Shown piece by piece: positions 1 through 64,000 of a stretch of DNA of 64,000 bases; position 1 is the first letter of the stretch, and each line of letters starts with the position of its first letter. A model generated the notes under the pieces. It did no database searches, was not told where the DNA came from, and worked only from the letters and a program-made list of their open reading frames with translations. The DNA is from Phaeodactylum tricornutum CCAP 1055/1 (taxonomy: Eukaryota; Bacillariophyta; Bacillariophyceae; Surirellales; Neidiaceae), in assembly GCF_000150955.2 (NCBI RefSeq), contig NC_011677.1, forward strand, positions 901,511 through 965,510, written 5' to 3'. A program made the position numbers and the translations under genes.

Positions 1-49
1 CAGGTCTTACATTAACTGTAAAGCGCTCAGAAGTGCGGTCAATGGAATA

Positions 50-355
50 GCTAAAAGCATAAATCTCCTGCTTCGGCTATCGCAAACTTGTAGCCACTGA
101 GTCTGGTGTTGCACTGAGAGTTTTACGGCCATGAATTGTCTTCAGCCGTTCGGAGGCGTCTTCGCGAAGATTCTGCATGAACGACGGAGTGGCAACTCCC
201 TCCTGCCCATTCTGACGATCGTTGATCTGTGCCTTCATTGCCGCCATACTGTCGTTGAGTGCCTTCCGCCCAAAGGCAGGAACGACGGCAACTTTGGCGC
301 CAGCTCAGAGTGGTTCTCGATTGCCTCGAAACACGTAGATTATGGTCATGTCTGA
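50..355 (-). pseudogene. Broken fragment of glycosyltransferase-like gene (copy 1 of 3)
   Basis: Read on the minus strand, this stretch is a diverged copy of the end of the two intact paralogues that follow. It carries the C-terminal tail (VATSLR-like), an internal deletion of roughly 230 nt, and then the block around the NDRM and VAVVPAFGR motifs before similarity stops near 355. A TAG replaces the Cys codon found in the copy at 2516-3670 (VATRLRCP). No open frame joins the parts. It looks like the remnant of a tandem duplicate, and more of the array may lie to the left of the window. Confidence 0.75.
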
Positions 356-414
356 ATATCCGATTATAACATGGACATGCATCATACTTCTGGGATATCA
401 CGGTTTCGTGTTCC

Positions 415-6033: not shown

Positions 6034-7365
6034 TTTGTGTGGTCAATGTGGCGCGGGCGTCGGAGGCAACACGAAAGGTTGAAGTAATGATTGTTTGCTG
6101 TGTCGAGGCTCTCGTGTCTAACAGGTAGAGAGGATACACGTTTGTGTGTATGTTGGCCGTCGTGTTTTCGTTCGTGTCGTTGTGCACACAGCACGGGCCC
6201 AAATTCTTCGGTACTGGGACGGGAAGTCGATTTGGGTTTGGTCGGGTCGTGTTACCGGCGACGACCGTTGTCGTGGGCTTACAGACAGACAGACTGACGG
6301 ACTGATACCCGGTATACTCACAGTCAACAGATTGACAGTGAGTCGGAAACCAAAGGTGGCACGGGACAGCGTGTGTCCATGCACGAGTTCCGTTCGCTTA
6401 TTTGACGATTGCGTTTCTCACCTATCAATTTTTTCGTGTGACTGTGAATGAAAACTATATTACTGTTAATGTAAATACTAACTGTAAGCAGGAGCAGGCA
6501 AGCTCCTTGTGGGTTTAAGTATAGGGTACAATCACTTTTTCCTTGCCCCACTGTTCAGTGCCGATACATTCCATACAAGGCAATTTTACCCCTACAATTC
6601 TAATCGTCTTGGAAAAGCTGACGACCTAACAATCCTTCGCTGTGCAATATACATATGACCTGAGTGTTCCGTCCGTTCTTTGGTGCATTCTCTGATGGAA
6701 CAATATCGCTAGGGCTTGATATTGCTGACTTACTACCATGCTACATGGGACAGGTGCACCAATCATGTCGAACGGAAGTCTTTGCCTGCAAGGAAGCCGA
6801 AGAGCGCAGCCGAGAATTGCTCCAACATCCTAAAGGAACGTGGCCAGCATCTCATAGGCAAAAGTCGCACGTAGGAGCGCTAGCTACACTTGTGGGTTGG
6901 CATTCGCTTTTAACAGTAAATGAAATGGCAGGTGCTGTGTGACCGTCAATATGACTGTTTACATTATTTTAGATAAAACAGTAAGCACATAGGAAAACAT
7001 TTACTAAATGATTGTGGTATATAACTTATATATGTGAGACCCATAGCATGATCTTTTCTATTTCTATACCTGACTGTGCGTCATCTTCCACTAAATCACG
7101 AACATATACGAGTCGCATCTCCGATACGGAGTAATTGGTCTGGTATCGCGACCAACATGGCGCTACCACATCGAGCCGTAGCACCTTTCCCCTACCATAG
7201 ACCGCTTCAAGTTCAAGGAGAAGAGTCAAAAAACTCGGATAGAAATTTGCGGCGTGATCATCTCTTGAGGGAAAGCTTTCTGGCTGTCCGCTTTGCTGAG
7301 GCTTTCGTTCGTCTTGTCCGCGCTGCCTCGCTTTCGCCACCACACAAGAACTATCTGTTGGCAAT
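6034..7365. other. Intergenic region rich in TXA-CTG-TXA nonamers
   Basis: A 1.3-kb divergent spacer between heme oxygenase (minus) and the LPA3-like gene (plus), so it must hold both promoters. Six copies of the covarying nonamer lie here: 6318-6326, 6333-6341, 6439-6447, 6460-6468, 6479-6487 and 6911-6919. The first five fall within 170 bp. I find no supported gene. Confidence 0.6.
6318..6487. repeat. Cluster of five TXA-CTG/CAG-TXA nonamers
   Basis: TCA-CAG-TCA, TGA-CAG-TGA, TGA-CTG-TGA, TTA-CTG-TTA and TAA-CTG-TAA occur within 170 bp upstream of the heme oxygenase gene. In every copy the two flanking triplets are identical, although the middle base differs from copy to copy. Confidence 0.85.
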
Positions 7366-8442: not shown

Positions 8443-8624
8443 CGTCACCAAAGGGCTACCTCTTTGGAGCAAGCTACTGAAGCAAATTGGGAGTGCAATA
8501 AAATCTCACGAAACCCCTAATACACACATTGTTGCGTTTGTCATTTGTTCGTTCGTTCGTTCTATATATAAAGTCGTCACTGGACTACAAAAGCAGACTG
8601 CCCCATAGAGAATTCAAATGAGCT

Positions 8625-11600
8625 TTACACCAGTTCCTTCTCAAAGGCAAGTTCTTCTTCTTCACTGTCAAGGGCCTCACCAGCCTTCATCTTGGCCTTA
8701 ATTTTCTTGATGAGTGCCTTCTCTTCCTTCTTGGACAGCTTCTTTTTGTCCTGCTTGATCTCGATCTTGTTACCGGCCGCATCGGTAACGTCCGTATTGA
8801 TCTGCATTTGATCAGAAATCTTAGAATCCTGCTTCAACATCCAGTCAGCGTCACCCTTGGTCTCGAGGTGACCGGCGTCCATGACCCAGGTTTCGGGACA
8901 CAGCTTGGAAACGAATTCGTTGTTGTGCGAGATGATGATCACTCCACCATCAAACTCCTCAATCGCACCAGCCAGGGCACCTAGCGATTCGCGATCCAGG
9001 TAGTTCGTGGGCTCGTCTAGAATGACAATGTGTGGCTGCATCCACATGGCAGCAGCCAACACAACCTTCACCTTCTGTCCTCCGGACAACGCCGACATAC
9101 GGTAATGGGTACCGAACTCACGTCCCAACCCGCAGCCTTCCAAATGCTCTTCGACATTCTTGGTCGACAAAGGACGGATGAACATACCGGCAGTCTGGGC
9201 AATCTTGAGATCGACAGCCTTCATGGCCTTTTCCCAACCCATCTTCTTGAGGATCTTCGACGACAAATATTCACCCGAGTCAACGGTCGAGCCGGCGTAA
9301 CGGACTTCGTACTCGTATTCTTTGCTCTTGTTCTGTTTACGTCCTCCCATGAGCTCACCCACAACCTTCTTGATCTTCGAAATTTTTCCACTGGCTTCGT
9401 CTACCACCTGAATCTCAAAGGGGGCCTTTTGCAGCTTAATTTCTTCATCGGAAAATTGTAGAGATACCTTGACCAGTGACTCCTTGTCTTCACCATTGTT
9501 GGCAAAACGCCAACGAATGTACTCGTTCGGGGTCTTATCCAAGTGGGATTCAATGTGGTGAAAGGCGTGCTGTGCGACGTAGGCGACACGAGCGTTGGGG
9601 TGCTTCCAGACGTCACCAACTTGCGGCTCAATCTCACCGACCAATAGCTTGATCATTGTTGACTTGCCAGCACCGTTCTCCCCAATACAAGCGATACGGG
9701 AACTGAGTGATACTTGCACAGTAATGTCGAAAAGCGTCGGCTTGTCGTTGACGGGATAGGTGAAGGTGCAGTTGGCCATCTTCATCAAGGCCTTACCCTT
9801 GGACTTGACACCCTCGATCGGTCCCGGCTGGGGAAACTTGAACTTCATCTTGGAGTCGCTCAAGGTAAAGTAGGCACGGGCAGCCGGGTGGGCCTTGACG
9901 TACTCGTCGAGATTTCCTTTGAAAGTGCTGAGCTTCAGGTTGTCGAAAGAAAGAATGTGGGTGCAGCAATCGTTCAAGAGACCGGAATCGTGACTGACAA
10001 TAATCGACGTCACGTTGGTCAATGAGTTCAGGTAGGTCTTCACCCAGGCAACGTTAATGACATCCAAATGGTTGGTAGGTTCGTCGAGCAGAAGAATATC
10101 TGCCTTTTGAAGCATGGCACGCGCCAGGGCCAATTTCATGCGCCATCCTCCACTCAAAGTCGACACGGCGTGGTTAGGCTTGGCCTTGCCGTCTTCGGTG
10201 AAACCAACCGTCGCGAGCACGTTGCGCACTTCTTCCGTGGTAATGCCCAAAGCCTCAATCTTGGGATCGTGTAGAACGTAGTCGACACACGACAAGTGGG
10301 ACTGTTCACCCTGAATATCGGCTTCGACGAATACGGTACGAACCTGACCAGTATCGGGGAATCCCTCGACCTGGTTATTGGCAATGGCTCGCATGAGCGT
10401 GGTCTTTCCGCAATCGTTGGGTCCCAACAGACCGTAGCGCTTACCACGCTTGAGGCGCATTTTGGTGTTGTGCAACAAAATCTTGGTACCGTAGGCGAGT
10501 GTGAAGGTACAGTTGCAAAGTTCCTCGGAGTCGTCCTCGTCTTCATCTTCCTCGGGGACGACCAACATCTTTTCGGCTTCTTCACGGACCTTTTCGATAC
10601 CGGCTTCCACCTTGGCCTTATCCAAATAGTCCACAAACTGCGACGAAACATGCTTGGTCCACTGCACATCTTCCATAAAGTGCAAGTCCATCATTGTGGT
10701 GGCAATGGTCGAGGCTTGCTTGATAACGACCAAGAGGCCTCCTTCCGCATTTTCGGCGCCCAAAGCCTTCTTAAATTCGTCTTCGAGCTTGGAGATATCT
10801 CCTCGGACGGAGAATTGCTTGTCCGCGAGTCCTTTCAGTCGATTCAACTGCGCCACGGCCAGTTCGGTGACTTCGCGGGCCTCGGGGTCGGCAATACTTT
10901 CCGCGTTGGTCTGTAGAGCCGGCAGCAAGAGGGGCAGGAAAGGAGCGGCGTCAAGCGGGTTGTCGACCAGCTTACTCATGTTGTTGATAATAACGGCTGA
11001 CTGACGCTTGGTAGCAATCTGCTTTTCCCGTAGTCCACGCAACAAAAGGGGCACGACCATGGCCAAGGCGGGTGATTCGACCGATTGGACAAAGGTAACT
11101 CCCGCCATCTTGTGCATAATTTCGGGCACTTCCTTGGGCTTGGTGATGGCGACCAAAATTTTGTCCGTCATGTGTTCGATATCGCGGTTCCCAATAACTT
11201 GGAGAGCGGCTTCCATGGCTGCGGTGGCGGCAATCTTGACCTGCTTCTTGGTGTCCCACATACAGGCGGTGACTTCGGGAATGACCTCCGGGAGGGCATC
11301 ACCCAACTGGCGCGGGGCGGTCTTGTTGAACTTGGCGATGCACTTGAGTCCCAACTCCCGGATTTGCCACTTCTTCTCTACGGGAAGCTGGGCAAAGATC
11401 TGGGGCAGCAAAGACTTCATGGCGAACGGATTGATGTTTTCGCAAATGGCAAAGGCCGTTTCTTCGGCGGTATTGCGGACATCTGTATTCTTGGACAAGG
11501 CTTGTTCCAGACCTGCCAACAACAAAAGTCATGAAATGGAACGTGAGAATGCACGTTCGATGCGAGTCGCGCAGAGATTCCACACAGATTCGCTTCCGGT

Positions 11601-11866: not shown

Positions 11867-14831
11867 GATAATGATGTATTCGTTCCCGTACGTATTCCAA
11901 CAAAAAATCTGTGGCGCAAGCACGACGAGCGTCAGCGTGTATGTGAGTATAAAGTGGGACAGGAAGAGTACCGTGAACAGTGCAAATGACTGGGGAACGA
12001 AAACGCATTCCCACTACCGAAACGACCGACTTTCGACCGTCGCAGCACATTGTCTCCTGTATTCCTACACTGTCCATCAGTAGCAGCGATAGTGTGTATC
12101 CTAGTCCAATCCATAGGTCTTCCTCTCGATCCATTCTTACCTACACGCACCGAAACCGATGGTCCTTTGGAAGAAATATACTATGTGTCCGTGTCGTCGT
12201 TTTGGGTGGGTGGGTGGTGTTGCGTGCAAAAAACTCCTCGTTGCCGTCGCGCCCTTCGAACGGTACTGGGCCTCCGTTTTCGCTGTCCCCAACGTTCCGG
12301 GTGGGGGTTTTCGCGGGTCGCGCGCTGCTGGATGGCGTCGGATGGACGTGAGCGTCGTTCGTCGCACACGTTCGTGATCTCATAACCTGTACCTCCGGAC
12401 CACGTTGACCGCGACGCACTTCCGTCCTAATGTCCGATACGACAAAACATCCGTACGGTATTCACAGTCAAGGACATGCGGGTCGCGCAGACGTACGAGT
12501 ATGGACCAAGCGGAAAGGACGGCGTGTCGTTGGACCGCGGAACGGTACTTTCGAGACCAGTGAGCGAGCTGGAGTTACGGACACGAAACGAGGGAGTACT
12601 GTCTACAACCTGTATTAGTTGTCTAACGATAGAGTCATCAGGCTCACGTTCGTTTTTATTTATTGGTGCGATGGGCCACAGCCAAGCGGGATTATTTTGT
12701 AATCGACCCAAATCGGCTGAAACGGCACTATCCTCGAGGAATCACCAAGTGCAACAAATCTTTCGAAAAGGAGCTAGCAACATTTGTTGGCCACATCCAT
12801 GGATGCCGACGCCACAATCAATCCTACGATACTAGGATCTTCAGCTGAGAAAAAAGGCAGAAAAAACAATTACCGAGTCAGACCCTGTACCACTCAATTG
12901 ATCCAAACCAATCCAACGCCGACCAACGGTCGCAGGGAGCAAGCGAGGACATCAGCGTATACAAATGTATAGAAACTTCGGCACTAAACAGTCGGATGCC
13001 AGTAGTCATAAAAGCATGTTGTATTTTCTTCCCTTGTCCCCTGCTTGCCCTCGTCCATATCGCCGCAACCCTTTTCCAAACCACAAACCCATCAGACAGT
13101 ACGAATAACAACAGTAGTCTTCTCATAACGCCATAAAGCGTTCTGAAGGTGTCCTAAGATGGGAGTCTTCATCTGGGTTGCTTGGTTTTGGGGCTGCGGG
13201 TTCGCGGTGTCCCGATCGGTCGCTGGAGGAAGACGCAGCATCCCGCCGGGTCGTTCGTTTTCGTTGACACCCCACACACACACAAATCTTCTCAAACTCC
13301 TGAGCTCCAACACGATGCCCCCCGGTACCACTCACTATTGCAAGACCTCACAGATTTTGTCGACATACTGGATTCAGTCTCATTATATCAGTATACTTTG
13401 GTTCGTTCATTGTGGTTTGGTGGGGGGTATACGTGAATCAGAACTCGAGATAGCGGCATTTTGCGTAACTTCATTTTGACCCAAAGGTTTCCTTTCTCTT
13501 ACATTCACACTCGTCGTCGATAGTAAGTACAAGAAACTTACCAAAAGTTACACTTCACGCAGAGACGATCCCAGCCTTTGCAAGGCCTCGTACGTTGCCT
13601 GACTGTGAGTGCCCTTGAGCGACTTTCGTCGTAGAAAAACACATCGTTATCTGGATTATGTAGAGTATCCCATTATAATTTCAGCCTCTGGACGAGCTTG
13701 ATCCTAATCAGGATGCATGCTTCCAACTGGTAAGACCTCATGACAAATATGTTGGGTGCGAGGCGATCAAAGCACTTCTGGAATAGTTGTGTGGTTGAGG
13801 AGCACGGCCCGTGATGTGGGGAGTGTCGTGCGTTAATTTCTAGTCGAATGGATCCGTTTCGATTCCGTATTCGACTGTATCGATCGCGACCAAGTACCGC
13901 TACGAGGGATCTGACTTGGCAAACCTACCGGTACTGATAATTCAGGGTTTAACTTCCTAATATTTCCACCAAATGCTCTTGTTTGGTTGTGTTTCCTGGT
14001 AACAAGTCCCAGAGCTTTTTTAGGCGACCACTCGCACCATATCATGCTATTTTATAAAGGCGAATGGTTTGTTTAGCGTGATTTTACGTATCTCAGTGTC
14101 GGTCGCTCCTATCGCCCTTTGTTTGGAAACGTAGCTGTCCGGAACATCAGGTCCGGAAGCGTTACTTGCCAGCAAACACTGATAGATTCCTACGTGACAC
14201 GATGTGGAGGCACTGAGACGCCTATTGGACAAAGCGGCCCATTTTGCGTTTCTTTGGATATAGCTTACGATGAATAGCGAAATGTGGCAACAGCTTACTG
14301 TTTGATTGCTCACAGTCAGCAAACACCCAAGACCTGCTGGTTACGAGCGTGGTATGCGAGAAGGCATTGCGTCAGAGATCCAAAGAGAGCAGCAGCAGAT
14401 AGCAGAAGTAATAAAGTGACGCGTGATGGCTGCTGAGTTGGCAAGAGTACGGATCGCCACCTCCATGTCAGCAGGTGGGAAACGATGGTGTTCAACTTAT
14501 GCAGATCCGATTGCAGTGAGTGATACTGGTTTGAAAACCTGGCTCTTAATTGTTAATGATTTCGACAATTCATTGAAAAAGCAGCTGTTGTTGAACTAAC
14601 ACGTCAACTTTCTGCTGTCTCGAGTACCGGATAGAAGAATTGGAGTTCAGTATTGGAGATTCCCTGTCTTAGTTTAGTGTCTTTTATATCACTACCACAG
14701 AGCCAAAAAAGCATTCGAAAACATCAACTCTTCTCATTTTCTGGGACGAATACGTGGTGACCGAGGGCTAGCGGGATGCTTGGCTGGTTGGCCTTGATAA
14801 TAGGGACTATCCTGTTGAGATAGAAGATCCA
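11867..14831. other. Long intergenic region, no gene recognised
   Basis: Almost 3 kb between the eEF3 start and the Y14 gene. Many overlapping short frames occur on both strands (12-13.4 kb) but none has a recognisable domain, splice-consistent partner or targeting signal. Three TXA-CTG/CAG-TXA nonamers lie at 12462-12470, 13600-13608 and 14310-14318. An unrecognised small gene or a long 5' UTR cannot be excluded. Confidence 0.4.
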
Positions 14832-15463: not shown

Positions 15464-18400
15464 TTAGCGCCAACGACTGTTGCCGTCCGAAGGGGGCCCA
15501 CGACGATCGTTGTAGCTACCACTCCCTGCGCCGCCACGACGATCTCCTCCGTATGCGCCTCCTCTACGATCGTCTCCTTCTCTACGATCGTCTCCACCTC
15601 TGCGATCGTCTCCACCTCTGCGATCATCTCCACCTCTGCGATCATCTCCACCTCTGCGATCATCTCCACCTCTACGATAATCACCACTTCGGTCGCCACC
15701 ACCGCGCCAGCCACCGCCTCGATCGTCCGAACGGCCTTCATAACGTCCACCTCCAGGGTAGGATCCGGCACCACCAAATCGACTGGGGCGGTCTTCTCCA
15801 CCGCCGCCACCACGTTCGCCACCGCTAGCCAAGCGTTGTGATGGAGGAATGTACTTGGCAGGACCTGCCTTTTTTCGACGCTCTTCCTCCATTCGTTCGT
15901 CTTCTGCCCGCCGGCGCTCTTCCTCTTTGGCTTCTCGCTCCCGGCGAGCCTCATCTTTCTTGCGCTTCTCCTCCTCTTCCTTCCGGCGAGCTTCTTCCTC
16001 TGCCTCACGGGCAGCTTCGGCAGCCATAAGCTTCTCCTCCGCTGCTTTCCGCTTGCGAGCTCGGGAAATTTTGGCCTTTTCGGCTTCCATTTCTGCCTCT
16101 TCTTCGGCTCTTTGGCAAATTACGTCATGCTCGGCTTGGCGTCCCACCATTACGGAGTTTTCAAACTCAGAGCAGTAGGCAAAGACGTTGTGGGATTCCA
16201 ACACAGCCTTGTCTTTCACATCGGCTTCCCATTGCAACTTAGCCTTTTGCGCCTTCTCGATGTTCTCTTGTTCGTACCGCTCCTTGTCCAATTTCGTCTT
16301 TTCTTCGTACTTCTTCTTGATCAGAGGCAGTTCCTCGATACGAATCGCCCGGACCAAATAATCCAGTTTCTTGGCCGTCTCACGAGTTTTGCGTTCGGCT
16401 TCCTCACGTTCCTTGTTGATCTTTGCTTCGTGCTCCCGCTGCAAGGCTTCCGTATCGATCTTGGCGATTTGCTCTTCCGAAATATCCTCCGTCTTTTTTC
16501 CCATGGCGGCCAGAAACCGTTTCTTCTCTTGATTGTCCAACTCTTGTTGAATTTTGCGCTGCTTTTCAATCTCGCGCAAGCGCTGTTCCCGCACGATGCG
16601 CTGTTCTTCTTCGGCCTTACGCGCTGCTTCCTCTTCCGCCTTGACACGGGCTTCTTGCTTAGACTTTTCTTGCGCTACTCGTTCGGTTTCTTCTTTGCGC
16701 GTTTCGATCAAGTTTTTACGTTCCAGCACGGCCGCGTGTTCGGCGTGGAGATTTTCGCGGACCGATTGGTACGTGGACAGTCGGGACTGCAACACGCTTT
16801 GCCGATCCGGTGGGGTCAGAACGTTGGACACGGCCTGTAGCTGCTTCGATAAGTTTACCAGCTGCGAGCGCATTGCGTCCGATTCCAGTTGCACGTTACC
16901 GAAACGTAGACAGCCGGCACGGTGATCCAGACGCACAGCCAGCGTTTTTGAACTCGTGACGATGGTCTTTTCCACCTGTTCGAAGCTCAGATCGAGACCA
17001 GACGTGAGAGATTTCAAATGATCCATTGATACCGTGTGGTAAGCTGCCGACAAGTTGCGAATGAGTTTCAGTAACAGCACGTTGGTGATGGGCTTAACGT
17101 AGCGACCCAAGGTCGTGTCATCGACGTCGTCGTTCTTGACATCGTTAGACGTGGTGGCCCCGAGCTCTTGCTGCAGCTGTTCCAAAAGCGGCTTGGCCTT
17201 TTGAACCATAATAAGCGGATCGTTGGTTTCTTCCAAAAGCTCGTAGAGTTCTCTCAAGTAGGCCGGAGCCTGTTCCAGAATCCCCTTGCTACGGATTTCC
17301 GCCAGCAAGGCGTCGCGGGTCGGGTTGCGCGTATGAAAGCCCAACAAGGTAGCCATGCGGGCCATTTTTTGCTTCACTATCCCGTCTTCGACCGTGGTGG
17401 CAATAGTATGTTGGTTGGAATGCGAGGCCTTGCTTTCGTTCGCGGGGACGGAAGGGATGCACAAGGCGGCCAATAGGACGGCCGACGCCTGCATACGCTT
17501 CGTGTCTTCCGACATGCCACGATTGAACTCTTTGCACAAGGTATAGTACTTGTACCAGGCAAAGGCGTGGAAAAGGTAATTTTCCGAAACCCAAAACAGG
17601 GTCGTGAGCTTTTCGTAGTAGGATGCCATGAGCTTGGCCTTGGGTGCGGGCACGTCGGGATTGTGCTTGCGACGAGCCTGGCTGATTTGGAGAATATTGA
17701 AAATATCCTCGCATGTCCGGAATCCTTCGGTGTAGCGGTGCAGGACGCTGGCGGTTTCGAGCTGTATGAAGCGCGTTTGTAGGTGCAACTCGATCGATTC
17801 CGTAGTCCAACCTTCCCAACCGCGGACCTAATGGCGCAAACGCGAGACCCACCAAAGTTTAAGAGCAGTGTGAGTGCACCGTTTCGGGGGATTGTCGAGC
17901 GAAAGGTCAATTCGTGGCATACGTACCTTGTTGTTGGTTTTTCCGTCATCGTTGGCGTCGAGATTGCCGTACTGGCGCAGATTGCCGAGATGGAGTCTGA
18001 GCATGTCACAAAGATTCCTAAACTCCATTCGACGTTTGTAATCTTGACAGAACTGCAAGGCGCTCTGTGCCGCAAAGTGGTAGACGTGTTCTAGTTTGGA
18101 GTTGGATCGCAAAATGTCCAGAACGGCTCGGTAGGTTTCCCAGAGAAACTTGAGGGACGGCACGAGGAGGGCGGAATCGCGTTGCGATTTGGCCGGGTCC
18201 GTGGACATGGTGGATAGCAAGATTGCCTGCGGAGAAGCCCGGAAACCGTCTTCGTCGTCGCCATTCCCATTCTCTTCCAAAATCTGATCCTGCTGGGCGT
18301 CCGCGGAAGCTTTGGCTTCGGTACACTTTTTCTCCGCCGCGGTGAGTAAGTAGCGAATCACCTTTTCCAACGATCCCGGAGCCTGTGTTTGACTCAAATT

Positions 18401-20879: not shown

Positions 20880-21215
20880 ACCTAGGGCTTGCCAGATTCG
20901 GAATGCGATGAGAGCGCTCCTTCACGTTCGCTCTCTTTCTAATTCGTAGATTCATTTCCAGAGATGGTCTTGGTATTGAGCAAGTTCGACTACATTAAGG
21001 TGCTTCAACCACCATCTTAAATCAACCTTGAGGGATGCGAAAATCCTGGAACCGACAGTTGACAGTCACAATAAAAGCGATCGGGAAAGAGTCCTCGATC
21101 GGGACTCAATATAGAAACGGGATATGAAATCTCAGACGAATCACACGTTGAAGCTCTTCCCTCACTGTCACACAATTTCCATTTTGCCTCATTCTTCGTT
21201 TGTGTCTCTGAAACG

Positions 21216-22798: not shown

Positions 22799-22974
22799 TA
22801 ACAGTGGGCGTCACCATAGGGTTCATTTGGCTATAACTTTTCTAGAAAGGCGCAAATGGCTCTGCTGTCCCTACAGTGGGAAAGCAATTGATTCGAACTT
22901 TCTAGTCAGTTTTTTTTTAATTTCTGACTCCTAGGAGAGATTGAGTTATCATAGTCCAAAAAAATTTGGTCTAG

Positions 22975-22994
22975 CTCGTGACTCGAGTCACGAG
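22975..22994. repeat. Perfect 20-bp palindrome inside the element
   Basis: CTCGTGACTCGAGTCACGAG reads the same on both strands. It lies about 40 bp upstream of the ATG of the element's internal frame and could be a subterminal binding site for a transposase or a promoter element. Confidence 0.8.
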
Positions 22995-23033
22995 TGGATT
23001 TCGACGGCAAATCGCTGAAACACAAAAGTCACC

Positions 23034-23228
23034 ATGGCGGACTTGTATGAAGATTACACCGCTTCTTCAGATGAAGAATCTGATGTAACTTGTAGAGTCA
23101 CAAAAAAGCTTACAATGGAAGACATCGGGCCGGAAACCTCTTCAAAATTGTCCTTGTTGAAGTCTCCAAAGGCATCCAACACCAAGTTGGGCCGACAAGA
23201 GTGTAAAAAACAACTTAACATTTGGTAA
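23034..23228 (+). CDS. Short acidic frame inside the element, possible remnant exon
   Basis: 64 residues from an ATG in good context (GTCACCATGG): MADLYEDYTASSDEESD, then a Lys-rich tail. The end of the frame coincides with a strong splice donor (TTG-GTAAGT at about 23225), so it may be the first exon of a longer gene whose remainder was lost, for instance the transposase of an autonomous parent. Acidic DEESD heads occur on several DNA-transposon proteins, but nothing more specific can be claimed. Confidence 0.35.
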   Translation: MADLYEDYTASSDEESDVTCRVTKKLTMEDIGPETSSKLSLLKSPKASNTKLGRQECKKQLNIW

Positions 23229-23312
23229 GTTGCAATTTATCAATGTAGTTTTTTTTAATACGTAAATACTAGTGGTTATCCGGGTTACTTATCCAATTTC
23301 AAGGTCTCATCT

Positions 23313-23343
23313 AGGTATCTAGCCGAAGGCGGCTGAGATACCT
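23313..23343. repeat. Hairpin near the right end of the element
   Basis: AGGTATCTAGCCG and CGGCTGAGATACCT pair around a 4-nt loop with a single irregularity. The hairpin lies inside the inverted-repeat element, about 75 bp from its right repeat. Confidence 0.6.
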
Positions 23344-23438
23344 ACCGCTTCATAAAGTCGCTCCATTGTACATTTAACACATAAATAGATACCATATACT
23401 GAGTTTATTTCTTCATCCTATGGTGACGCCCACTGTAA

Positions 23439-24210: not shown

Positions 24211-24580
24211 TCACTGTCAGCTTCTCAAGCATTTCAGTGAAAAACCACCACCCCTTGGCCTCCCATTTCTTTCTGCTTTGCATGGCATTGTTGAGACATT
24301 CATCCTGGAAAGCGCAAGCACACTGCAATCTTTGCGCTTTTTTCCCAAAGGAATAATGTAGACGTCAAAAAAGCCAAGTTCCCCTTTGTACCATTTTGCG
24401 GAAGGGTCAATATCTGCATGGCCTGATTGATATGCCTGGTAGCACTCCATGAAGAATTGGTCATTCCATTTTTTATAAATATTCTAGTGCTGCATTGTGT
24501 GAGAAACATTGGATGCCCAAACCTAACATGCAATGACTGTCACAATACACATCAAGATGATGTGTCCCTAGGACAGGTCT
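24211..24580 (-). pseudogene. Remnant of a diatom cyclic-nucleotide phosphodiesterase catalytic domain
   Basis: Read on the minus strand, the conserved end of the HD-type phosphodiesterase domain is visible in order: VWASNVSHTMQH, a TAG where Trp is expected, NIYKKWNDQFFMECYQAYQ, SGHADIDPSAKWYKGELGFFD, VYIIPLGKKRKDC. A frameshift follows, then DECLNNAMQSRKKWEAKG. In diatoms this domain is common in receptor-type nucleotide cyclases. The stop, the frameshift and an upstream TAG (after IAC) show it is dead. A TCACTGTCA nonamer sits at its 3' border (24211-24219). No upstream part of the gene could be traced with confidence. Confidence 0.65.
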
Positions 24581-36264: not shown

Positions 36265-36265
36265 A

Positions 36266-37559: not shown

Positions 37560-37563
37560 TTTT

Positions 37564-42694: not shown

Positions 42695-44178
42695 TACAAT
42701 CCTAGCCTACGTCAACACCATTCACTCATCAAAGCTTAATGAAGAAATCGTCTGGAAAATGCAAATGGCGGATCATGAGTGGGTGAAAGGTCTTTTTGAA
42801 GTTAGCCACAAAGGTCTGGCAAACGAGAGTTGTCCATTTACAATCCAGTAGACCAGAGCAACTGACGTGTCGGCTTCTAATTGACATTAATAAGAAAAAC
42901 AGAAAGCCCCGGCTGTCTATATTCGGAGAGGGCGAATCCCATCTTACAGTCAATACTTAGTCCCAATCCTCTGACACGCAACCTGATTGTGCATTGATTC
43001 ATCAAAAATCTAAAAGTGGGAGGTGACTCACTGCAAAACTCTTTTAAACAAATTTGAAAGCTCCATGTGGACTTCGTTAGCGAGCGGGGATAAGATGTGT
43101 CTTTTGCAGTTAGGTATTCCTTGACTCGCCCGGTTTTGTAAGGGCAATGTCTATTATGTCTTTCGAGAGACTCTCTATTTGGAAGGGAGAAAGTAATTTT
43201 AAAATTGAAGTAATTCAAATTAGGCCGAGATGAATCCTGTATGTTAACAGTAAGTAACACTCGACTGTGAGTGAAGGCTTCGGCTGGCAGGTGGACGTCG
43301 TAGGAGCTCATTTTGACTCGTGAACTTGTCATAGCTATCTATAAAAGCTAGGCGTTGACAAATCAAGTGTATATTCGTTTTACATCGGCACGTTTTAACT
43401 CGCGAGCACCGTACTCGTTCTGCTGCAATATTGGAACATCGCCACGCACATCCGATAAGTCAAGTAACGAAATGACCAAAGGTGCTATTTGTTGGGTAAT
43501 ACTTTCCAAACTAGGGGTAGCGAGGATTGAAGTCTTGGAGTAAAGTGTGATTTGGAGGCGCGACCGCTGGTCGTGCGTTTGTCGACTCATAGCCAGCACC
43601 ACCCTATAATTGTCGATAGACCTCTCGAATTGTCGAAAGACTTCTTACCTAACCTTTCTACGAAGATGCACGAGAAGAGCTGAGCTTTGCCACGAAACGG
43701 CATTGACACAGTAAGAGCAGTGTTCCTTGGCTCCTACGGGTCATTAGTCGGAAAAAGTAGTCACTTTTTTATTTGGACCTCGAGCTCGATTGGGAAATCA
43801 ATCCCGTCAGTCTGCACCAGATTAGCAGGTTTCTTTTCACGAGCTCCATTTTTAGCTGATCCAGTACCACTACAAGATAAGCTTTCAATGCATCAAAACC
43901 CATTTACAGTAGTTGGTTGCACTGTTAAGTTTCGTATTTCACAGTCGAAGTCAAGAGGTCTCCGGAAATCATCGGCGAGGGAACTCTCGTTCGTTGACGT
44001 TGACAGTGAATGGGACTGACTGTGAGTAGGCAATCCCAAGAGACACGGAAACTCACACGCAAAAACGTTTTTGAGTGTGTTTCGTCCTCCGATCACATTT
44101 CGTCACACAAAAATTGGTGGGCTATTTTGTAAATTCATAAAAACACAAAAAAGACACCCCAAATCACCCCTCTAGCAA
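42695..44178. other. Spacer, no gene recognised
   Basis: 1.5 kb between the carrier and the ornithine decarboxylase. Short frames (42877-43332 minus, 43687-44019 plus) show no recognisable motif. Nonamers at 43245-43253, 44001-44009 and 44017-44025; the last two are 7 bp apart and just upstream of the decarboxylase. Confidence 0.4.
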
Positions 44179-46511: not shown

Positions 46512-47579
46512 AACTGTGCGAGCAACGCTGTCGCAAACCTCTTGAGAGAAGACTTGATAGAGCGCGGCTTCCAAATGAATAACCTTATGCATGCCATTAT
46601 AGAGGCATAGATAAACAAATTGGAGAACGTTCCGAAATGTAAGAGTCCAGACGTTGACTGGACAAATGCAATCCTTTTGTGAAAAAGTAAATCAATCAAT
46701 TCTCTAAAATGTAAGAGTAAGTTGTAGCGGCGTTTCCTTTGTTGCGCTATGAAAGGGATGCCGCGAAAGGGCTAGTTGTCCGCAGGTTCATGTCCTGAGT
46801 TTAAGTGTCAAATGCTGAGTTGTCATTGAGAAGGAAGCAGGAAGATTGAATGTGCATGAAGCAGACCTGCTCAAATATTAGCTAGCGGAAACAATAAATT
46901 ATCGTAAGTGGAAGTCGCAAGACAAGCACTTCTGTTAAAATATTTGTTACAACGAGTAGAACTCAAAGCAAGAATTCAATGGAACGCGTAGCTTTTAGGT
47001 AAAAATAACACTAGGATCACAAGTTGATCTTTTGCGGCACGAGGCAACTCGAAATCAATGTACTCGGTTTGGGAGTCTGAAAACAATACCAAGTCGACCA
47101 TATTAACCGCCGACGCTAAACTATTTGGCGATTATCTTTCCATTAGCGGGGATTCGATTTGACCAACTCGAACCGCTCCTAACTCGAACCGCTCTGACTG
47201 TGAACGACGTTGCCATGGCAGCTTAGAATTGCAGTGTACGACCTACCTATTTTGTCAGAATTAGTGATGACAATGAGTCTCTGGTTTACGGGACTTGCGA
47301 GCATCGTTTTTTTCTCTCTTTTATTTGAGAGATTGCTTGACCGTGAATATATCAATTTTCACGTCACGACGATACATTTATTTATTGGGGGGAGGATTGC
47401 AACGACACCTCACAGTCAATGCACCATTTTGTATATTGCACCCAGAACGGCTATTCGACATCGTTTTCTCTGTTTCACTGTCAACTTGCTTGCTTACGGG
47501 GGTCTATTGGCAACACGACAGAAACATTCTACCGCCTGTGTCCACTCTCTTCTCGCTCACGATCCAACAGACTATTTCG
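46512..47579. other. Spacer with three nonamers before the phosphatase gene
   Basis: Holds the decarboxylase 3' UTR and the phosphatase promoter. Open frames here lack an ATG consistent with a gene. Nonamers at 47195-47203, 47410-47418 and 47475-47483 lie within 400 bp upstream of the phosphatase start. Confidence 0.45.
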
Positions 47580-48695: not shown

Positions 48696-49168
48696 GCATT
48701 GGGATCTAACTGTAAAGTGTTTTGTAACCAGACAAGTTAATACCCGCGCAAATAGCTTTTCTTTGGCTTGCTGAGGCGAGAAGACGACAAGAGTAACTCT
48801 AAGGGATTTTATTTCACGCACAGTTAGATACCAACTTGCTGAAGCAAGCTACAAAGAGAGTAGAGCTCTTGCAATCAGCAAGTTAAGTAAAAGGCCGATA
48901 CGGACTCATTGATCAGATACTTCCCCATTTCAGCGGTATTCTAGACGTGAGACTTCACAAGCTGTTGCATTCATTAACATCGTCAAGCCATTTTCGTAAA
49001 ACATAAATACAACAGAAATGAGCATTATTTTCCAACTTTGGAATGGGATCGATCTTAAAAATTCATTGACATCTCGACGCTCTTTGTTTCGTAGCCAACA
49101 CAAAAGTTTGGATGCTGACAAGAATCACTCTGGTTCCAGCGTGTTCAGCTAAAAATGCGCTTGTAACC
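48696..49168. other. Convergent 3' spacer
   Basis: 473 nt between two convergent genes. Carries a nonamer at 48707-48715, right after the phosphatase stop. No gene seen. Confidence 0.45.
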
Positions 49169-49891: not shown

Positions 49892-51065
49892 CTTCTACAC
49901 TCTGCTGTTTTGGGCAGAGTTGACCGTCCCATATGCAAAGGTAGACCGCTCCCCAGAGAGGCGTCGTTGATTTTCTTCGTCTCGAAATTCGAGCGTGACC
50001 GAATCGACTTCAAAAATGTTGCTGGACTGGTGTTCTCAACGTTCATAACCAGGACGGCCTCCTTACATTAACTCTAACTGTAAATGCGGTATTTTGACCC
50101 AAACACCGCTAATATCAGCGAATACGATTAGAAACTCACCGTAAAAGAGGGTACTAAGTTAACGTCAATTATGTCTATTTTACGTAGAGTCAGTACAACC
50201 CTAAAAAACAGGAGTATTGAACAGTGAGAGCGAGCCCCACCCACTCTACAAGGCGGTAATCGACTCCATTGTGAACTTCATTCTGCAAACCAATGCCATG
50301 ACAATTTTCCAGACAAGACACAATGTTCAAGATGGCCTGAGAGGTACCGCTTGTAATCCTTGTAGCAGTCGCGCCATCAGAGTGTTTGCCGCATTTGTAG
50401 TGTCTTTCAGCGCGAAGAATTGGGTGGAAACAAGCGGTCGCCTACAATGAATGTGAAGTACTTTCGACATATCGAATATCTACAATACTACAATTCTTTT
50501 TAATTTTCCGTTACAAACTGGGAAAACGATCCTCGCTGACAAGATCTCACAGCCGTTTCGCGCTCAATCTGAAGTACTTATTGTTAGAAATTTTCAGGTT
50601 TGGCCGAAACAGCAATTTTTTCATGTCTTTCAGGCTGAAATAGTGGTTTTCCTCATCAATTCTCTAACGTCAAAGGCGTAAAAACGAAGTTTAAGAGCCG
50701 GTCTTTAATTGTTCTCTTCGAAATAAAAAGAACACCTCACGAAGCGATTTCCGCCAGAGTTCCTCTGATCATTCATTGATAGTTCCAGTTAGTCACCATC
50801 CAGGTCATCGGGCAATGCTTTGATGGATGAACGTTTACTTGCTTTTGAAGTTCTGAACAAAGACAGGGTGAAACACTTAGGACACTGAGCGGGTCCGAAG
50901 CGATGTTCCGAAAAGGAGTCAACCGTTCGGGCAGGCTCCCAATCGAGATTGTAGGCTAAAAGTGTTGCAAGAATTCTCTTTCGACTTTGTCACCCTCTCA
51001 TCATCCCATACTTACGTTGAGCTGCCGTATCAGAAATAGCCTGCGGGTTGGAAGTGAAGGTATTT
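49892..51065. other. Spacer, no gene recognised
   Basis: 1.2 kb. The minus frame 49759-50046 overlaps the membrane-protein gene in another frame and is not supported. One nonamer at 50075-50083. Nothing else seen. Confidence 0.4.
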
Positions 51066-52792: not shown

Positions 52793-53803
52793 GCTATCAT
52801 TGAAGAGGTCTTAGACAGCAGCAACCACAACATGAATAGCTGCTGACAAGGGGAATGAAGTAACTCTGATATCGGCAGATTACAGTTAACAGTACTGGTC
52901 TATGGATTCCAAAGAGGAATTCTGTCTGTTTTTTGGCCGTGCGTCAAGTTGACGACGTATCTGGAAGTCGTTGGCATGTCGCGTGAAATCGTCGATTTAA
53001 CATTGAGTGTGAAAAGAGCTTCCCCTCTCCAACGAAAAGATGTCCGCAGGGACTTACACTTCAATATACCATACACTCGTTGGATAACATAGAAGGATGT
53101 AAAATCGCGACATACAAAGACATATGTATGGCGATCAAAGCACGAAGTTTGAAAGCAATGATACTCCTAGAGAAAGAAGAAAAGGGACCAGATAATCACT
53201 ATCAACAACACAAGCAAGGAAAGAGTAGACCAAACTTGGTGATAAAGTTAAGTCTCCACAGTCGATTCGTAGCCCCAGTCAGTAAGACAATCAATGTAAA
53301 AAGAGGAATCAGGAATTTTCAACACTGCGAGAAGTTCACAGACTTCCAAAGATAAGGCAGGCTCACTGTCAAGCGGCGGGACAACATATGCTGCTCTGGC
53401 TATTTACATTAGTAGAAGTTTGAGAGTTGGCCGTGCGAGTTTCGGTTCTACCGCTGGTTGCGTCAACATAGCGTCCGACTTCCATAGTTTAAAGTCATAG
53501 TCATCATCTTAAATCTGAATATAATGTCAAGATATTTGATAATTCTTTTTGTCGAACGCACAACAGAAAGATGATAGTAAATTAATTTTCATTGACTTGA
53601 AAAATTTGTATAAAGTAGGTTAGAAATTCGGAAGGGAATTCGCAACTAACTGTAAGCCAGACGACTTGGAATCGAGGCATCTTCGACAATCACCAGAAGA
53701 CCAAAAACGAATCATATTTTTTTCCGCATCGAGACTATAATTCATCCTCCTCATCTTCTGCCCTTCCTGGTTTTGGCTCTCTGAAAGCGATGAAAGTTTG
53801 ACC
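52793..53803. other. Divergent spacer, no gene recognised
   Basis: 1 kb between divergent genes, with both promoters. Nonamers at 52880-52888, 53363-53371 and 53647-53655. A 91-codon plus frame at 53080-53355 has no ATG at its start and no recognisable motif. Confidence 0.4.
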
Positions 53804-54802
53804 ATGAGCTTTCGATGGAAAAGCAAAGGGACATCTCATAAAGGCTCCTCTAGCTCGCAGAGCGACGAAGACAGCGCGGTACATTCTACTTGGTTAGAGC
53901 GAGTCGGAAGCCACGATCGGATGAGCATGGTAGGGCCCCGATCTAGACCTTTTGGAACGAAAAACATACAGCGATACCATAGTGTCGACGAGATCCTTCC
54001 AAAAAATTCTCTGAACGGATCCATGCATTCTTTTTTTCAAAATGGAAGCAACGAGCGATTTCCGCCAGCAAGGCCAGTTCGATCATCCTCGAAACGAAAT
54101 CTGGGGGATTATTATCTGAGCATGTCGTTTGACGACGGCAGCAAAGATGTAGCAGTTGGAAGCGCGCCGAAAAAAATGCAGATGCTTGACTGTGAGCGAT
54201 CAACGTCCCCGGCTTCGAATCACTATGGGACAGTCTTACCGTCTGCGACAAACGAAGGCAGTTTATGCCGACGAAAAGCCTCTCCACTTATTTGTACGGA
54301 CCAGACAGTTCCTCCCAACTCGCACAGCGCTGAATCTCTTCGCGAAACGGAAATAAAAGCATCGGTTTCTGCACCTCGCGTGGATCGGGCAAATCGGAGA
54401 TGGAAATCCGGTGGGGAAAATGCCTTCCCGTTTCCAGCACAAAATAGTCCCCGAGAGAATAAAGTCCATCAAAACGAATGTTCTAATCCCCCAACTTTCA
54501 TCGATATTGCTCCAGGATGCTGCCTCCGGTTGAGGGGAGCAAAGGAAACCTGGGCATGTGTGGAGCAAGATTTCTTCATCCCAACATCTTGCTTTGCCTG
54601 TTTATTGGATCTTTGCTGTATTCAAGATGCTGAATATGTTCTTTGTCCTAGATGTAGGGTGGTCAGTCCATTAAGAGGATCGAGTTTACAGTCAATTAAT
54701 GGAGCTGGTGGAGTGGGATTGGGTTTCACGATCGCCGACCTTGAACTTCTGCAATCCGAAATCATTTCAAAGAGCAACAACTCTATACATCCTTCTTCAT
54801 GA
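53804..54802 (+). CDS. Diatom-specific protein with C-terminal zinc-ribbon-like domain
   Basis: 332 residues from the ATG at 53804. The first 230 residues are Ser/Arg/Lys-rich and look disordered. From about 235 to 320 there is a compact domain: IDIAPGCCLRLRGAKETW, DFFIPTSCFACLLDLCCIQDAEYVLCPRCRVVSPL and VGLGFTIADLELLQSEI. I have seen this arrangement (LRGA..TW, CxxC, IQDA.YVLCPxCRxVSP, GLGF) repeatedly in diatom proteins of unknown function. The paired CxxC motifs would suit one zinc. A TGACTGTGA nonamer lies in frame at 54187-54195 (LDCE). Confidence 0.75.
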   Translation: MSFRWKSKGTSHKGSSSSQSDEDSAVHSTWLERVGSHDRMSMVGPRSRPFGTKNIQRYHSVDEILPKNSLNGSMHSFFQNGSNERFPPARPVRSSSKRNLGDYYLSMSFDDGSKDVAVGSAPKKMQMLDCERSTSPASNHYGTVLPSATNEGSLCRRKASPLICTDQTVPPNSHSAESLRETEIKASVSAPRVDRANRRWKSGGENAFPFPAQNSPRENKVHQNECSNPPTFIDIAPGCCLRLRGAKETWACVEQDFFIPTSCFACLLDLCCIQDAEYVLCPRCRVVSPLRGSSLQSINGAGGVGLGFTIADLELLQSEIISKSNNSIHPSS

Positions 54803-56325: not shown

Positions 56326-57058
56326 AACTCGTTTGTGAAGCAATGGTGGTGTGTGTCGCTTGGTGGATAGTGAGATGAAATTTCTGTTATGTTTCGAAGA
56401 TAAGATTAGATTGAACGTCTAGCTAGTCTCGAAGTACCAACAATAAACGACGTATGGAGAGAAAGTTGACAACTGAAATTCTTAATGACAATGTATGTGC
56501 GATTCATCACTTCTCCGGATACGTTCAGAAATCGCGTAGCCTGCCTATGCTCTAGTGAGACGGTTGTTGCAAATCAACTGTCTATACCCTCCCCGCAATA
56601 CCCGAAGTATAGTTGGTTGTCGTTACGTTCGGCATTGCAAATTCCGAGCTATGCGTGATCGTGGGCACGGCAGTTAATTAGTTGAAAGAAGATAAGGTAG
56701 CCTGTAGAGGTGTAGATCGCTTAACCGTGAGTGCTTCATTATACTGCAAGTGAGCGCATCAACTGACGTGTCAGAGACTATTAGACAGATTGCACCAACT
56801 TGTCATCTGTTTCACAGTCAGAGCCTCTCTAATAGAAGCTAGTTATTTATGTGAGTCCAAGGTCAGTCGCCCTAACAGACGTACACTTACCCATTTCCAA
56901 TATCCGGGTCTACTTGGCCTTCAAAATTACGAAGCGTCCAGACTGCTCCCTTAGCCGTTCGGTTCGAATCTTGATTGCATTCGTTTTTGTAGTCTAATCA
57001 CTTTCAACCTCCTTGTACACTGATTTTCAATCTCCTTGTACACCGATAGAAAACGAAA
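56326..57058. other. Spacer, no gene seen
   Basis: 733 nt. One nonamer at 56812-56820. A B-box-like GGTTCGAATC near 56960 has no matching tRNA fold. The right end holds the cupin-like gene's promoter. Confidence 0.4.
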
Positions 57059-57679: not shown

Positions 57680-57803
57680 TCAAAAATAGGACCGTAACCA
57701 AACCTTTCACATTTTTGGATTTTCGATAAACTTTTTACATTCTCCGATTCCAGCCCACTTGCTCGAGAGGATTGAAATTTACACTAACTGTAAATTAACA
57801 CTA

Positions 57804-60662: not shown

Positions 60663-61101
60663 GATTCTTCGATGCCTGTCGTATTTGTTGAAACACGAAA
60701 AAAATTCACAAGCACATGGGTTGTGCGACAAGATGGACAGGGAGCTGAGGCTGGTCGGCTATCCATTTAGCGCGGATGGACAAAACCAAAAAGACGGTCT
60801 TGCCGACCGTGACAGTATGGCAAGTAACGAAAGTAAGCGGTAATGTCACTCTTCCTTTTTGTGTCACAGGGAGTGTCGTCTTTGCTAATTTCGTCATCAA
60901 CAGGAAGAGCCCATAACGGGACTGACTGACTGTGAAAATAGGTTAGGTCCATGGTTCGTTTGAAGATGGACGGAGGGAACACCGCATAAACAACAATTTC
61001 TTCCACAATGGGACGAACCGGTGGTAAGCCAGAGTCGGACTCTTTTGAATTTCTCAAAGGATCGTCAATGAGATTCGGAATAACTGTGAACACTTCTCGA
61101 A
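60663..61101. other. Divergent promoter region, S10e / GT32
   Basis: 439 nt between divergent start codons. One nonamer at 60927-60935. Contains a minus frame (60767-61153) without recognisable content. Confidence 0.4.
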
Positions 61102-62574
61102 ATGTCTTCTTGGACTCTCCAAACGCGTCGTAGGTCTCACAGGATCCTACCACTGCACACCGAATCTACGGATGCAAAAAGAACATCAACCGCACCACGG
61201 CACCATGATTCCAGAACATCTCAGTCTTTGCGTAGTTTCCCCAACACCGATGGCAGAAACAACTCGCTCACTAGTTTTGATCGGTTGTCGCCAGAGGACG
61301 ATTCTTTGAAGCGATCCAAAAAGGCAAGGTCCAAAAGGATTTCCCGTTATCTTGTGGGTTGTTTCTCTCTCCTCGTGATACTCGGTAAATTCACTACCAA
61401 CTTCCGAGGCCAGTCGTCGACTCAAGATGTGCACTTCACCAGTACCCATGGCTCTGTCAAAGCTTCCCCAGATGCGGTTTTTTCAGTCAACGGAACGTCA
61501 TCGTACAAATTGGATACGTTGCCATTGATACCAGAGGATCATCACCGCCATAAAGTTCCCAATATCATTATATTTACGCACTATCGAGACTTTCTCCACG
61601 AAGATCTTCCTTACTCCATGCCAAATGTTTCAGCAGCACACCATCAACGCTCACATAACCTGACAGAAGATCAAATTGAGTTACTGGCCTTGCAGGCAAA
61701 CGTCCGAGCATCGGCCAGCTTACACCCAAAAGCACAAGTAAGATTTCTTACCGACAACGACTGTATCGAGAGCTTGTCTCACCTCCTTGACAGCGCCGAA
61801 GACAATGCTGACTTGGTAGCGTACTTTCGGCGGGAATCTATTGGCATGTTCAAAGCTGATTTGTGTCGGGGAGCTGCGCTCTATGAAACCGGAGGTCTCT
61901 ACTTTGATGTAGATTTGGGCGTCCGCCAGAACGTCTTTGAAGTTCTGAAGGAGACCACACGTTTCGCAACCGTTTTGGTTCATTCTGCTTCTAATCACAA
62001 GGGATCCTTCTTTCAGGCCTTCATCGCATCGACCCCGCAACATTTTGTATTGAAACGCTACATTGAACTGTTCTTGTCCTATGCACGACACGAACTAGAT
62101 ATCGATGGTCCGCTAGGCGTGATTCTACTACAACGCGCGTACAATGAAATGGTGGAGGAGCGACCGGACATTGTCGATTCGACAGAATTGTGGCAGGAAG
62201 TCATGTACAGACCAGGATTTCAAACCAACATCCTGAGTGATGTGCCGCCCCCAACCTGGGGCTATCGGCGAGCCTGTAAATTCATCGTACTTGCCAACAA
62301 GGCCCTGCCGTTGCGGGTACCTTTCTACAGTCGTATCGCTGGTTCACGCATGTGTCCATTCGGATTTGATTCACGGTACAAGACAAAGCCGAAGAAGAAA
62401 AAGACTGGGAAGAAAGCTAAAACCACAACATCCGAAAGCGACGACAATCAGCACCACTTCGAAAGAATCAATCGCAAATTCGCAGCGGGCAGCGAAAAAC
62501 AATTTGATGAGCTATGGATGAATCAAAGCAACTTTAGGACCAAGAACAGTGCTTTTGTCGAAGAGGATGAGTAA
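61102..62574 (+). CDS. Type II Golgi glycosyltransferase, GT32 (DXD) family
   Basis: 490 residues, no intron. A basic cytosolic head (1-80) precedes a signal anchor at about 82-96 (YLVGCFSLLVILGKF). The lumenal domain has the GT32/OCH1-type motif: GMFKADLCRGAALYETGGLYFDVDLG, with the metal-binding DVD at residues 269-271. It continues with STPQHFVLKRYIELFL, as in mannosyltransferase and GlcNAc-type members that bind a sugar nucleotide with Mn. The C-terminus carries a Lys-rich run (KTKPKKKKTGKKAKTT). Probably acts on N- or O-glycans in the Golgi; the acceptor is unknown. Confidence 0.88.
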   Translation: MSSWTLQTRRRSHRILPLHTESTDAKRTSTAPRHHDSRTSQSLRSFPNTDGRNNSLTSFDRLSPEDDSLKRSKKARSKRISRYLVGCFSLLVILGKFTTNFRGQSSTQDVHFTSTHGSVKASPDAVFSVNGTSSYKLDTLPLIPEDHHRHKVPNIIIFTHYRDFLHEDLPYSMPNVSAAHHQRSHNLTEDQIELLALQANVRASASLHPKAQVRFLTDNDCIESLSHLLDSAEDNADLVAYFRRESIGMFKADLCRGAALYETGGLYFDVDLGVRQNVFEVLKETTRFATVLVHSASNHKGSFFQAFIASTPQHFVLKRYIELFLSYARHELDIDGPLGVILLQRAYNEMVEERPDIVDSTELWQEVMYRPGFQTNILSDVPPPTWGYRRACKFIVLANKALPLRVPFYSRIAGSRMCPFGFDSRYKTKPKKKKTGKKAKTTTSESDDNQHHFERINRKFAAGSEKQFDELWMNQSNFRTKNSAFVEEDE

Positions 62575-64000
62575 TCAATGTCATGTTTCTTGGTAGCTGT
62601 TACTGTTAGTTTAGACTCTTCAACGATAACTGCGAAAACCACTTGAGCGGCTAAGGCTTCCTTTCTGCTGCTGCTCCAATTGCGGCGGCGAGATGCAGCC
62701 AGCCCGTTAAGATATCCTTCGTTTTCAGCTTGGACAGCAATCCTTTGTACTGGCACACTCGAATCACTGGACGTCACTCGCTTAGGAATCGAGTGGGTAT
62801 TGTTTACTCTCGTCGTTGATAGCAATACTCGTTTTGTGTGTGATGTTATCGACGCTTATGGGTATGAAAATCATAGAAAACTCGGGTTCGACAGTTTCGG
62901 GAGGTACTTCAAAGAACAAACTCACGCATGTGGTCGTGCTTTCGGGAACAATTATTAGGCCAATTGCGGGGAAAACCAGAAAAAGGTCCGGGCACATGTA
63001 CACTAGGATCTATCGCTTTGGACCGGACTCTTCACATCAAAATCCCTTTTCAATTAGTCCGTCAAGCTAGTGAGTGTTGCGAGATTCCAGAGCGTTGTTG
63101 CCACGCTCTGTAGACTGAAGGCTTTAAAAGTCCGAAGCTAACAATAAACAGGCTCGAACAGCTTCCTCGATTTTGAGAGATCCCAGAGTAGTACCTGTAT
63201 ATCTTACGATCGGGTTGACTGTGTATAAAGATTATCTAAGAACTAGTGTCTATTCTACTTCTGTGCTCACTGTCAGGTAACCACCTTCCGATGGTTAAGT
63301 TCCACAGCCAATCTCTCCTTGCAGTCATTTTACCCTACGTGATGACAGGAATTCCTCAAAGTAGCTTAATCAACTAACCTTATAACTTTAGGATCTACAC
63401 AAACCAAAAGGTCTGCTTCTCTAGGATAGTTGGTCCCGATACAATCTATCGCTTGACACGACCAACTCGCTCCCTTGAGGAGTTCATCCCCTTCCTTAAC
63501 GCAAGGCTCCGCCTAATGTAAGTAGAAAACCCCTACGTCAAGCGGTACATGAGGGGTTCATATCCCCAAGTCTATCTCACAAGTCTATAATCTTATGTTT
63601 TTACGCCTTTGACCGTCTACGAAAGTATGCGGGATCCTTTCGGGTCCTTAGACGATTCTAGCCCGTTATCGTTGCAGTTTTCTAGTTTATCAGACCCAGT
63701 AGTTCTATGCTGAGGTAGCGGGATCAAAGGTAGTGTTTTCGTTGTGTTTTCGTTGTGTTTTCGAGTGTTTGAAGTGATCGCTGGTTCTGATTGTGCCTGG
63801 GGAGGTAGGGCAAAATACCTGACTTTTCATGTTGTTATTAAGTCGCCGATGCCTGCAGAGGCCTGGAATATACTGCCAGTTTCTCGTAGTGGTCCACGTG
63901 ATAGACGTGTTGATCGTTTACTGGGTTTCGTGTCGGTCTAACGGTCTGAAACAAGGCAAATCTCCATGGTTGGACGCATCCATGAATCTCTTCATCTATC
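62575..64000. other. Noncoding end of window, possible retroelement edge
   Basis: No supported gene. Nonamers at 62600-62608 and 63267-63275. From about 63300 the text changes character (runs such as GAGGAGTTCATCCCCTTCC, then TTTATCAGACCC near 63686). The latter is faintly like a tRNA-Met primer site (TATCAGAGC) of LTR retrotransposons, which are abundant in diatoms. No repeat partner is visible inside the window, so the LTR idea is weak. Confidence 0.25.

Follow-up and report, generated by a model that had tools for sequence, protein, structure and literature searches.

Dispersed TXA-CTG-TXA nonamers in the genome of Phaeodactylum tricornutum as probable excision scars of a small cut-and-paste transposon

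The transposases of Sleeping Beauty and mariner are described as nicking three nucleotides (nt) inside the element, thus generating 3-nt 3′ overhangs (PMC7827188), and non-homologous end joining after Sleeping Beauty excision is reported to leave a CAG footprint (PMC8151067). For the diatom Phaeodactylum tricornutum, repeat annotations list uncharacterized transposase-containing elements, with "Other transposase" amounting to 9 copies and 12,068 bp, and the passages of those reports that deal with these elements mention no excision footprints or scars (PMC2806351, PMC5859163). The present analysis concerns 64,000 nt of P. tricornutum CCAP 1055/1 (contig NC_011677.1, positions 901,511 to 965,510 of the forward strand; henceforth, the window), across which a nonamer, TXA-CTG-TXA or its complement TXA-CAG-TXA, is dispersed, being termed equal-X where both X are the same base. 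We propose, with a probability of approximately 0.93, that these nonamers are excision scars of a small cut-and-paste transposon, copies of which are still present in the genome. This reading is considered well supported because the element itself was found in the window and elsewhere in the genome, which would very probably represent a log of former transposon positions.

The nonamer pattern itself is real. A preliminary description of the window had given 36 equal-X positions, at every one of which the nonamer is present, and the addition of two that it overlooked brings the number to 38, versus 1.6 expected under a Markov model of order 3 fitted to the window. While its equal-X enrichment thus stands, its count of four unequal-X nonamers does not, as seven are present (5.0 expected). 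Searches of the genome (27,450,724 bases in 88 contigs) returned 12,594 matches to TNACTGTNA on both strands (control, 5,703), 3,449 to TGACTGTGA (control, 183), 2,226 to TCACTGTCA (control, 314), and 3,725 to TWACTGTWA (W being A or T; control, 1,603). Because 11 of 100 TWACTGTWA matches, counted by hand among the matches listed, were unequal-X, the genome is estimated to hold approximately 8,990 equal-X and 3,600 unequal-X nonamers, corresponding to a 7.5-fold difference per combination. The equal-X excess over background is approximately 7,800, or one per 3.5 kb. Two outcomes named beforehand as refuting the scar reading were thereby checked, and neither occurred: the genome-wide count lies far above expectation, and the unequal-X forms are without equal enrichment.

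Specificity also extends to the spacer and the flanking bases. Across spacer lengths of 0 to 59 in a 264-kb sample (the window and C1:100001-300000), length 3 with CTG or CAG was the sole spacer standing out. When 19 spacers were compared as alternative footprints, with equal-X fractions set against a 27% null and p values left uncorrected, seven besides CAG exceeded the null at p < 0.05, namely, the absence of any spacer, C, CA, CGA, ATC, GCA, and CAA. The CA/TG spacer was unique among these in its association with flanking pyrimidine (Y) and purine (R) bases (17 of 46 equal versus 11 of 64 unequal copies; p 0.017) and represents a possible minor footprint; the other six, in which equal-X copies displayed no YR-flank excess, were put down to sequence background. 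Of 91 scars, 75% are preceded by Y and 87% are followed by R, with a weaker preference for A at position -2 and T at position +10.

A scan of the window for inverted ends bounded by TXA revealed one clear case, a 634-bp non-autonomous element (22802 to 23435, plus strand) which begins with CAG, ends with CTG, and lies between two TAA target-site duplications (22799 to 22801 and 23436 to 23438, neither assigned a strand). Its left terminal inverted repeat (TIR), CAGTGGGCGTCACCATAGGG (22802 to 22821, plus strand), matches the right TIR (23416 to 23435, minus strand, ending ...CACTG) at 19 of 20 positions. The start of a putative transposase reading frame (23034 to 23228, plus strand; 64 codons followed by TAA, as read by eye) resembles the N terminus of the transposase encoded by a full element at L029, to which a DDE_3 search with four matches led. 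The L029 element measures 2,209 bp, has perfect 20-bp TIRs and TTA/TTA flanks (in the context CAC-TTA-GTA), and encodes an open 600-amino-acid (aa) DDE transposase frame. Bases 1 to 368 and 503 to 634 of the window element align to its two ends (approximately 90%), and the window element is, as judged by this alignment, an internal-deletion derivative of the L029 element. At least 23 matches to the window element (family 1) occur in the genome, with five near full length, including itself, among the matches listed. Complete copies are flanked by TAA/TAA on C44 (two, with the same flanks) and by TCA/TCA on C21, while single ends adjoin TCA on C4 and TAA on C8 and C2. A second family, with at least 13 matches in the genome, of which five were fetched, includes a complete 938-bp copy flanked by TGA/TGA. 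All six second-family ends found by pattern follow TNA (L032 and L062 representing one copy); the right end of the C12 copy was looked for and not found. Y precedes each of the eight TNA-adjoining family 1 ends and each of the six second-family ends, and R follows five of six family 1 ends (the exception being on C16), such that the flanks of the elements agree with the flank preference of the scars.

The target duplication could be read directly from a C44 copy inserted in a repeat, the flanks of which, joined with one TAA, align along their full 277 positions, with no insertion or deletion, to three other places (99, 98, and 96% identity, with TAA at each junction). Because these empty sites hold a single TAA and align without gaps, the C44 insertion duplicated three bases. 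The preliminary description had viewed each nonamer as a duplicated TNA target surrounding three nucleotides left behind by the end of an element. The former part is corroborated by the TAA/TAA of the window element, by complete copies bounded by TAA, TCA, or TTA (TGA in the second family), and by the ungapped empty sites, and the latter by elements that begin with CAG and end with CTG. Around C16:386092-386737 (L051/L052), an element copy lies between two direct repeats of approximately 125 bp, a tandem duplication of which one unit holds CTG at the position where the other holds the element. Scar-versus-empty paralog pairs in the fetched sequence were limited to trivial self-overlaps, one unequal-X repeat pair (L030), and this C16 duplication; the two scars of L059 lie outside the portion common to L057 and L058, and the C12 copies of the window repeat start within the scar at 63267, none of them crossing it. 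C60 was considered as an alternative allele and rejected, as an 801-base test stretch had no second copy.

It is proposed that the element, with ends CAG...CTG, inserts at TNA in a palindromic context near A-Y-TNA-R-T and duplicates three bases. Upon excision, the transposase would cut one strand exactly at the element tip and the other three nucleotides into the element, leaving each flank with a 3-nt 3′ overhang, CAG. These overhangs would pair except at a central A:A, which end joining would presumably resolve to either CAG or CTG. The product would be TXA-C(A/T)G-TXA, in which the two X, as copies of one target base, could not differ, with the CTG/CAG alternatives arising because the overhangs are of the 3-nt Sleeping Beauty type. 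Beyond the observed element structure and 3-bp duplication, we infer the cutting and joining step from the biochemistry of Sleeping Beauty and mariner and from the exact match between element ends and scar, and the mechanism is best read as working like that of Sleeping Beauty.

Several observations weigh against this interpretation. The C16 copy has unequal target-site duplications (TGA/TCA), and the comparison of its repeat units is marked by ATG in place of CTG in the neighboring spacer and by upstream homology of only approximately 7 bp. Truncated family 1 ends at C15 (CTC) and C12:417947 (CAA) do not lie at TNA. The gaps of <30 bp, which are overrepresented between window scars (5 versus 0.9 expected; p 0.001), show no significant clustering on C1 (2 versus 1.1; p 0.30). 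Furthermore, CTG exceeds CAG on the TGA strand genome-wide (3,449 for TGACTGTGA versus 2,226 for TCACTGTCA), and the A/T forms, counted by hand among the TWACTGTWA matches listed, comprise 57 AA versus 32 TT, so that purine X goes with CTG in both comparisons; a simple overhang model does not predict such an asymmetry, which might reflect one overhang being retained more often than the other. Finally, the approximately 7,800 recognizable scars stand against at most a few dozen copies and fragments among the matches listed, and many of them may stem from extinct or unrecognized families sharing these ends.

This last disparity is also the principal argument for attributing the scars to a different transposon family altogether, lost or unrecognized, which followed the same rule (CAG ends and 3-bp TNA duplication): at least 23 family 1 and at least 13 family 2 DNA matches, in places several per copy, are few for so many scars. 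Appreciable decay is likewise apparent, as one-mismatch equal-X copies show a rough excess over the six fixed positions of approximately 81, versus 82 perfect copies, and many scars may consequently be old. However, families 1 and 2 between them reproduce the target, the duplication, the flank preference, and the end trinucleotide, and because of this no further maker is needed, rendering such a family improbable.

The distribution of the scars bears on a second alternative. Relative to YTNAR sites, 79 scars versus 1,260 sites were counted outside long frames and 13 versus 1,556 inside (odds ratio, 7.5; by sample, 2.8 with p 0.02 for the window and 12 for C1), and sampled DNA outside long frames holds approximately 6 scars per 100 YTNAR target sites. 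A location mainly outside long frames is a property shared with regulatory sites, and the nonamer might be imagined as a dispersed protein-binding site, i.e., a direct repeat of TXA spaced by CTG; yet X varies over four bases while remaining equal, which a protein would have no obvious means of enforcing, and real elements are bordered by these very bases, with only one TNA at the empty site, leaving this explanation with hardly any credibility. Chained scars, of which two, both mixing CAG and CTG, occur in a 274-kb sample and two, unmixed, among the C1 matches listed (1231336/1231342 and 1025737/1025743), fit, where mixed, insertion into a pre-existing scar. A third alternative, a (TXACTG)n hexamer microsatellite or slippage during replication, would account for the nonamer as 1.5 hexamer copies and for the existence of longer chains but is to be dismissed as extremely improbable, given that the enrichment is centered on TNA-CTG/CAG-TNA with palindromic flanks where slippage would hit many hexamers, that both chains of the 274-kb sample mix CAG and CTG, a mixture not produced by slippage, and that no hexamer expansion of like strength was present among the spacers counted in the 264-kb scan.

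As regards placement among known systems, the predicted transposase fold, compared by VIA-align against the top Foldseek chains, matches Mos1, SETMAR, and Sleeping Beauty. The protein is an RNase H-like DDE transposase with a mariner/Tc1-type catalytic domain, as in the ITm (IS630-Tc1-mariner) group. A Pfam scan of three proteins, up to E 0.1, yielded DDE_3 and one weak DUF6293_C match, and no Harbinger domain, while the IS630 profile NF033545, a model of bacterial and archaeal proteins, gave 41.1 and 49.9 bits, below its cut-off of 100. A phmmer search of the PDB returned no match, and no transposase relatives were found in viral and prokaryote contigs; relatives are encoded in the genomes of Nitzschia inconspicua and Amphora coffeaeformis. 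Sleeping Beauty and other Tc1/mariner elements are thus comparable in that their DDE transposases share the fold predicted here, and the 3-nt CAG footprint that Sleeping Beauty is described as leaving from its 3-nt 3′ overhangs (PMC8151067, PMC7827188) has its counterpart here, the scar again being the terminal trinucleotide CAG. They differ in that Tc1/mariner elements target and duplicate TA, in contrast to the 3-bp TNA of the complete copies and empty sites here, and in that the spacing between the last two catalytic residues (D-E/D) is given as 34 to 41 (PMC8533490), versus 83 here. The latter value falls inside the DD78E to DD111E range described for Sailor (DD82E), in which DD83E is frequent, stramenopiles included; however, Sailor duplications are described as mostly TATA and its TIRs as usually starting with GT or CC, and the main text of that paper does not contain the words diatom, Bacillariophyta, or Phaeodactylum (PMC8533490). 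Fot and Fot-like pogo elements likewise belong to the ITm group, most Fot being described as having a 3-bp TAA duplication, but they are reported to carry D at the third triad position (DD29-56D) and TAA, TA, or TAAA duplications (PMC7386202), as opposed to DD83E and any TNA here. PIF/Harbinger elements are credited with a "classic TNA" 3-bp duplication (PMC12477816), although the present transposase matches DDE_3/IS630 and is without a Harbinger domain, and mPing is described as undergoing precise excision-site repair (PMC4561436), unlike the 3-nt scars observed here. The family is filed as an unassigned DD83E, TNA-targeting lineage of the ITm group, set apart from Tc1/mariner by its target and spacing and from Sailor as usually described by its duplication and ends; the "Other transposase" and uncharacterized elements of P. 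tricornutum may include it. In addition, L031:199-2157 holds a 652-aa open transposase-like frame in which the first catalytic D is replaced by G (VYVGESY for VYMDESY); no matching TIR pair was found within that locus, and the frame is perhaps dead or domesticated.

While cut-and-paste transposons are usually counted by their remaining copies, departures can be counted here as well: the mechanism is already known, and it is the scale that is striking, with thousands of target-labeled scars, many more than the elements listed, in the genome of a diatom that serves as a standard model. Among the papers listed by searches of the mainly open-access literature, none was recognized as reporting genome-wide excision scars in diatoms, which does not prove that no such report exists. 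The history of transposition, the choice of targets, and end joining, including which overhang wins at A:A, become measurable from sequence alone, and each scar, which adds 6 bp without shifting the reading frame, is a candidate for polymorphism among strains. By combining a DD83E transposase with TNA targeting, the element would broaden the ITm group, and it may serve as a diatom gene-transfer tool. More tentatively, and at somewhat less than even odds, it might represent a hop-only ITm lineage spread in diatoms, kept at few copies over the long term since nearly every insertion is excised and joined alike. The decayed scars would then suggest more excision events than the approximately 7,800 still readable, and much of the so far unannotated 6-bp insertion that shapes diatom intergenic sequence would come from such scars.

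Individual scars of the window, none of which is assigned a strand, are distributed as follows. TAACTGTAA occurs at 13 to 21, 6479 to 6487, 48707 to 48715, 50075 to 50083, 53647 to 53655, and 57785 to 57793, and TCACAGTCA occurs at 6318 to 6326, 12462 to 12470, 14310 to 14318, 47410 to 47418, and 56812 to 56820. TGACAGTGA is found at 6333 to 6341, in the same 283-aa stop-to-stop frame as the 6318 scar, which lies at the end of that frame, and at 38449 to 38457 and 44001 to 44009. TGACTGTGA is located at 6439 to 6447, 13600 to 13608, 30819 to 30827 (one of the two overlooked previously), 38579 to 38587, 44017 to 44025, 47195 to 47203, and 60927 to 60935, and as a nonamer within a 353-aa stop-to-stop frame at 54187 to 54195. 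TTACTGTTA is present at 6460 to 6468 and 62600 to 62608, TAACAGTAA at 6911 to 6919, 38650 to 38658, and 43245 to 43253, and TTACAGTTA at 52880 to 52888. TCACTGTCA is present at 21162 to 21170, 24211 to 24219, 25890 to 25898, 31204 to 31212, 47475 to 47483 (within a 472-aa stop-to-stop frame shared with the 47410 scar), 53363 to 53371, and 63267 to 63275; its further occurrence at 8662 to 8670, the other overlooked nonamer, lies in a 967-aa frame and may be due to chance. The chained double scar TCA-CAG-TCA-CTG-TCA occupies 27807 to 27821, its nonamers starting at 27807 and 27813. Five scars fall inside the 170 bp from 6318 to 6487, a hot spot or a case of local hopping. Positions 63522 to 64000 belong to a repeat running past the end of the window (40 of 42 among the matches listed, at 80 to 94% identity), which looks like the end of a long terminal repeat retrotransposon, and a tandem repeat of seven copies of an 18-bp unit is located at 15561 to 15687.

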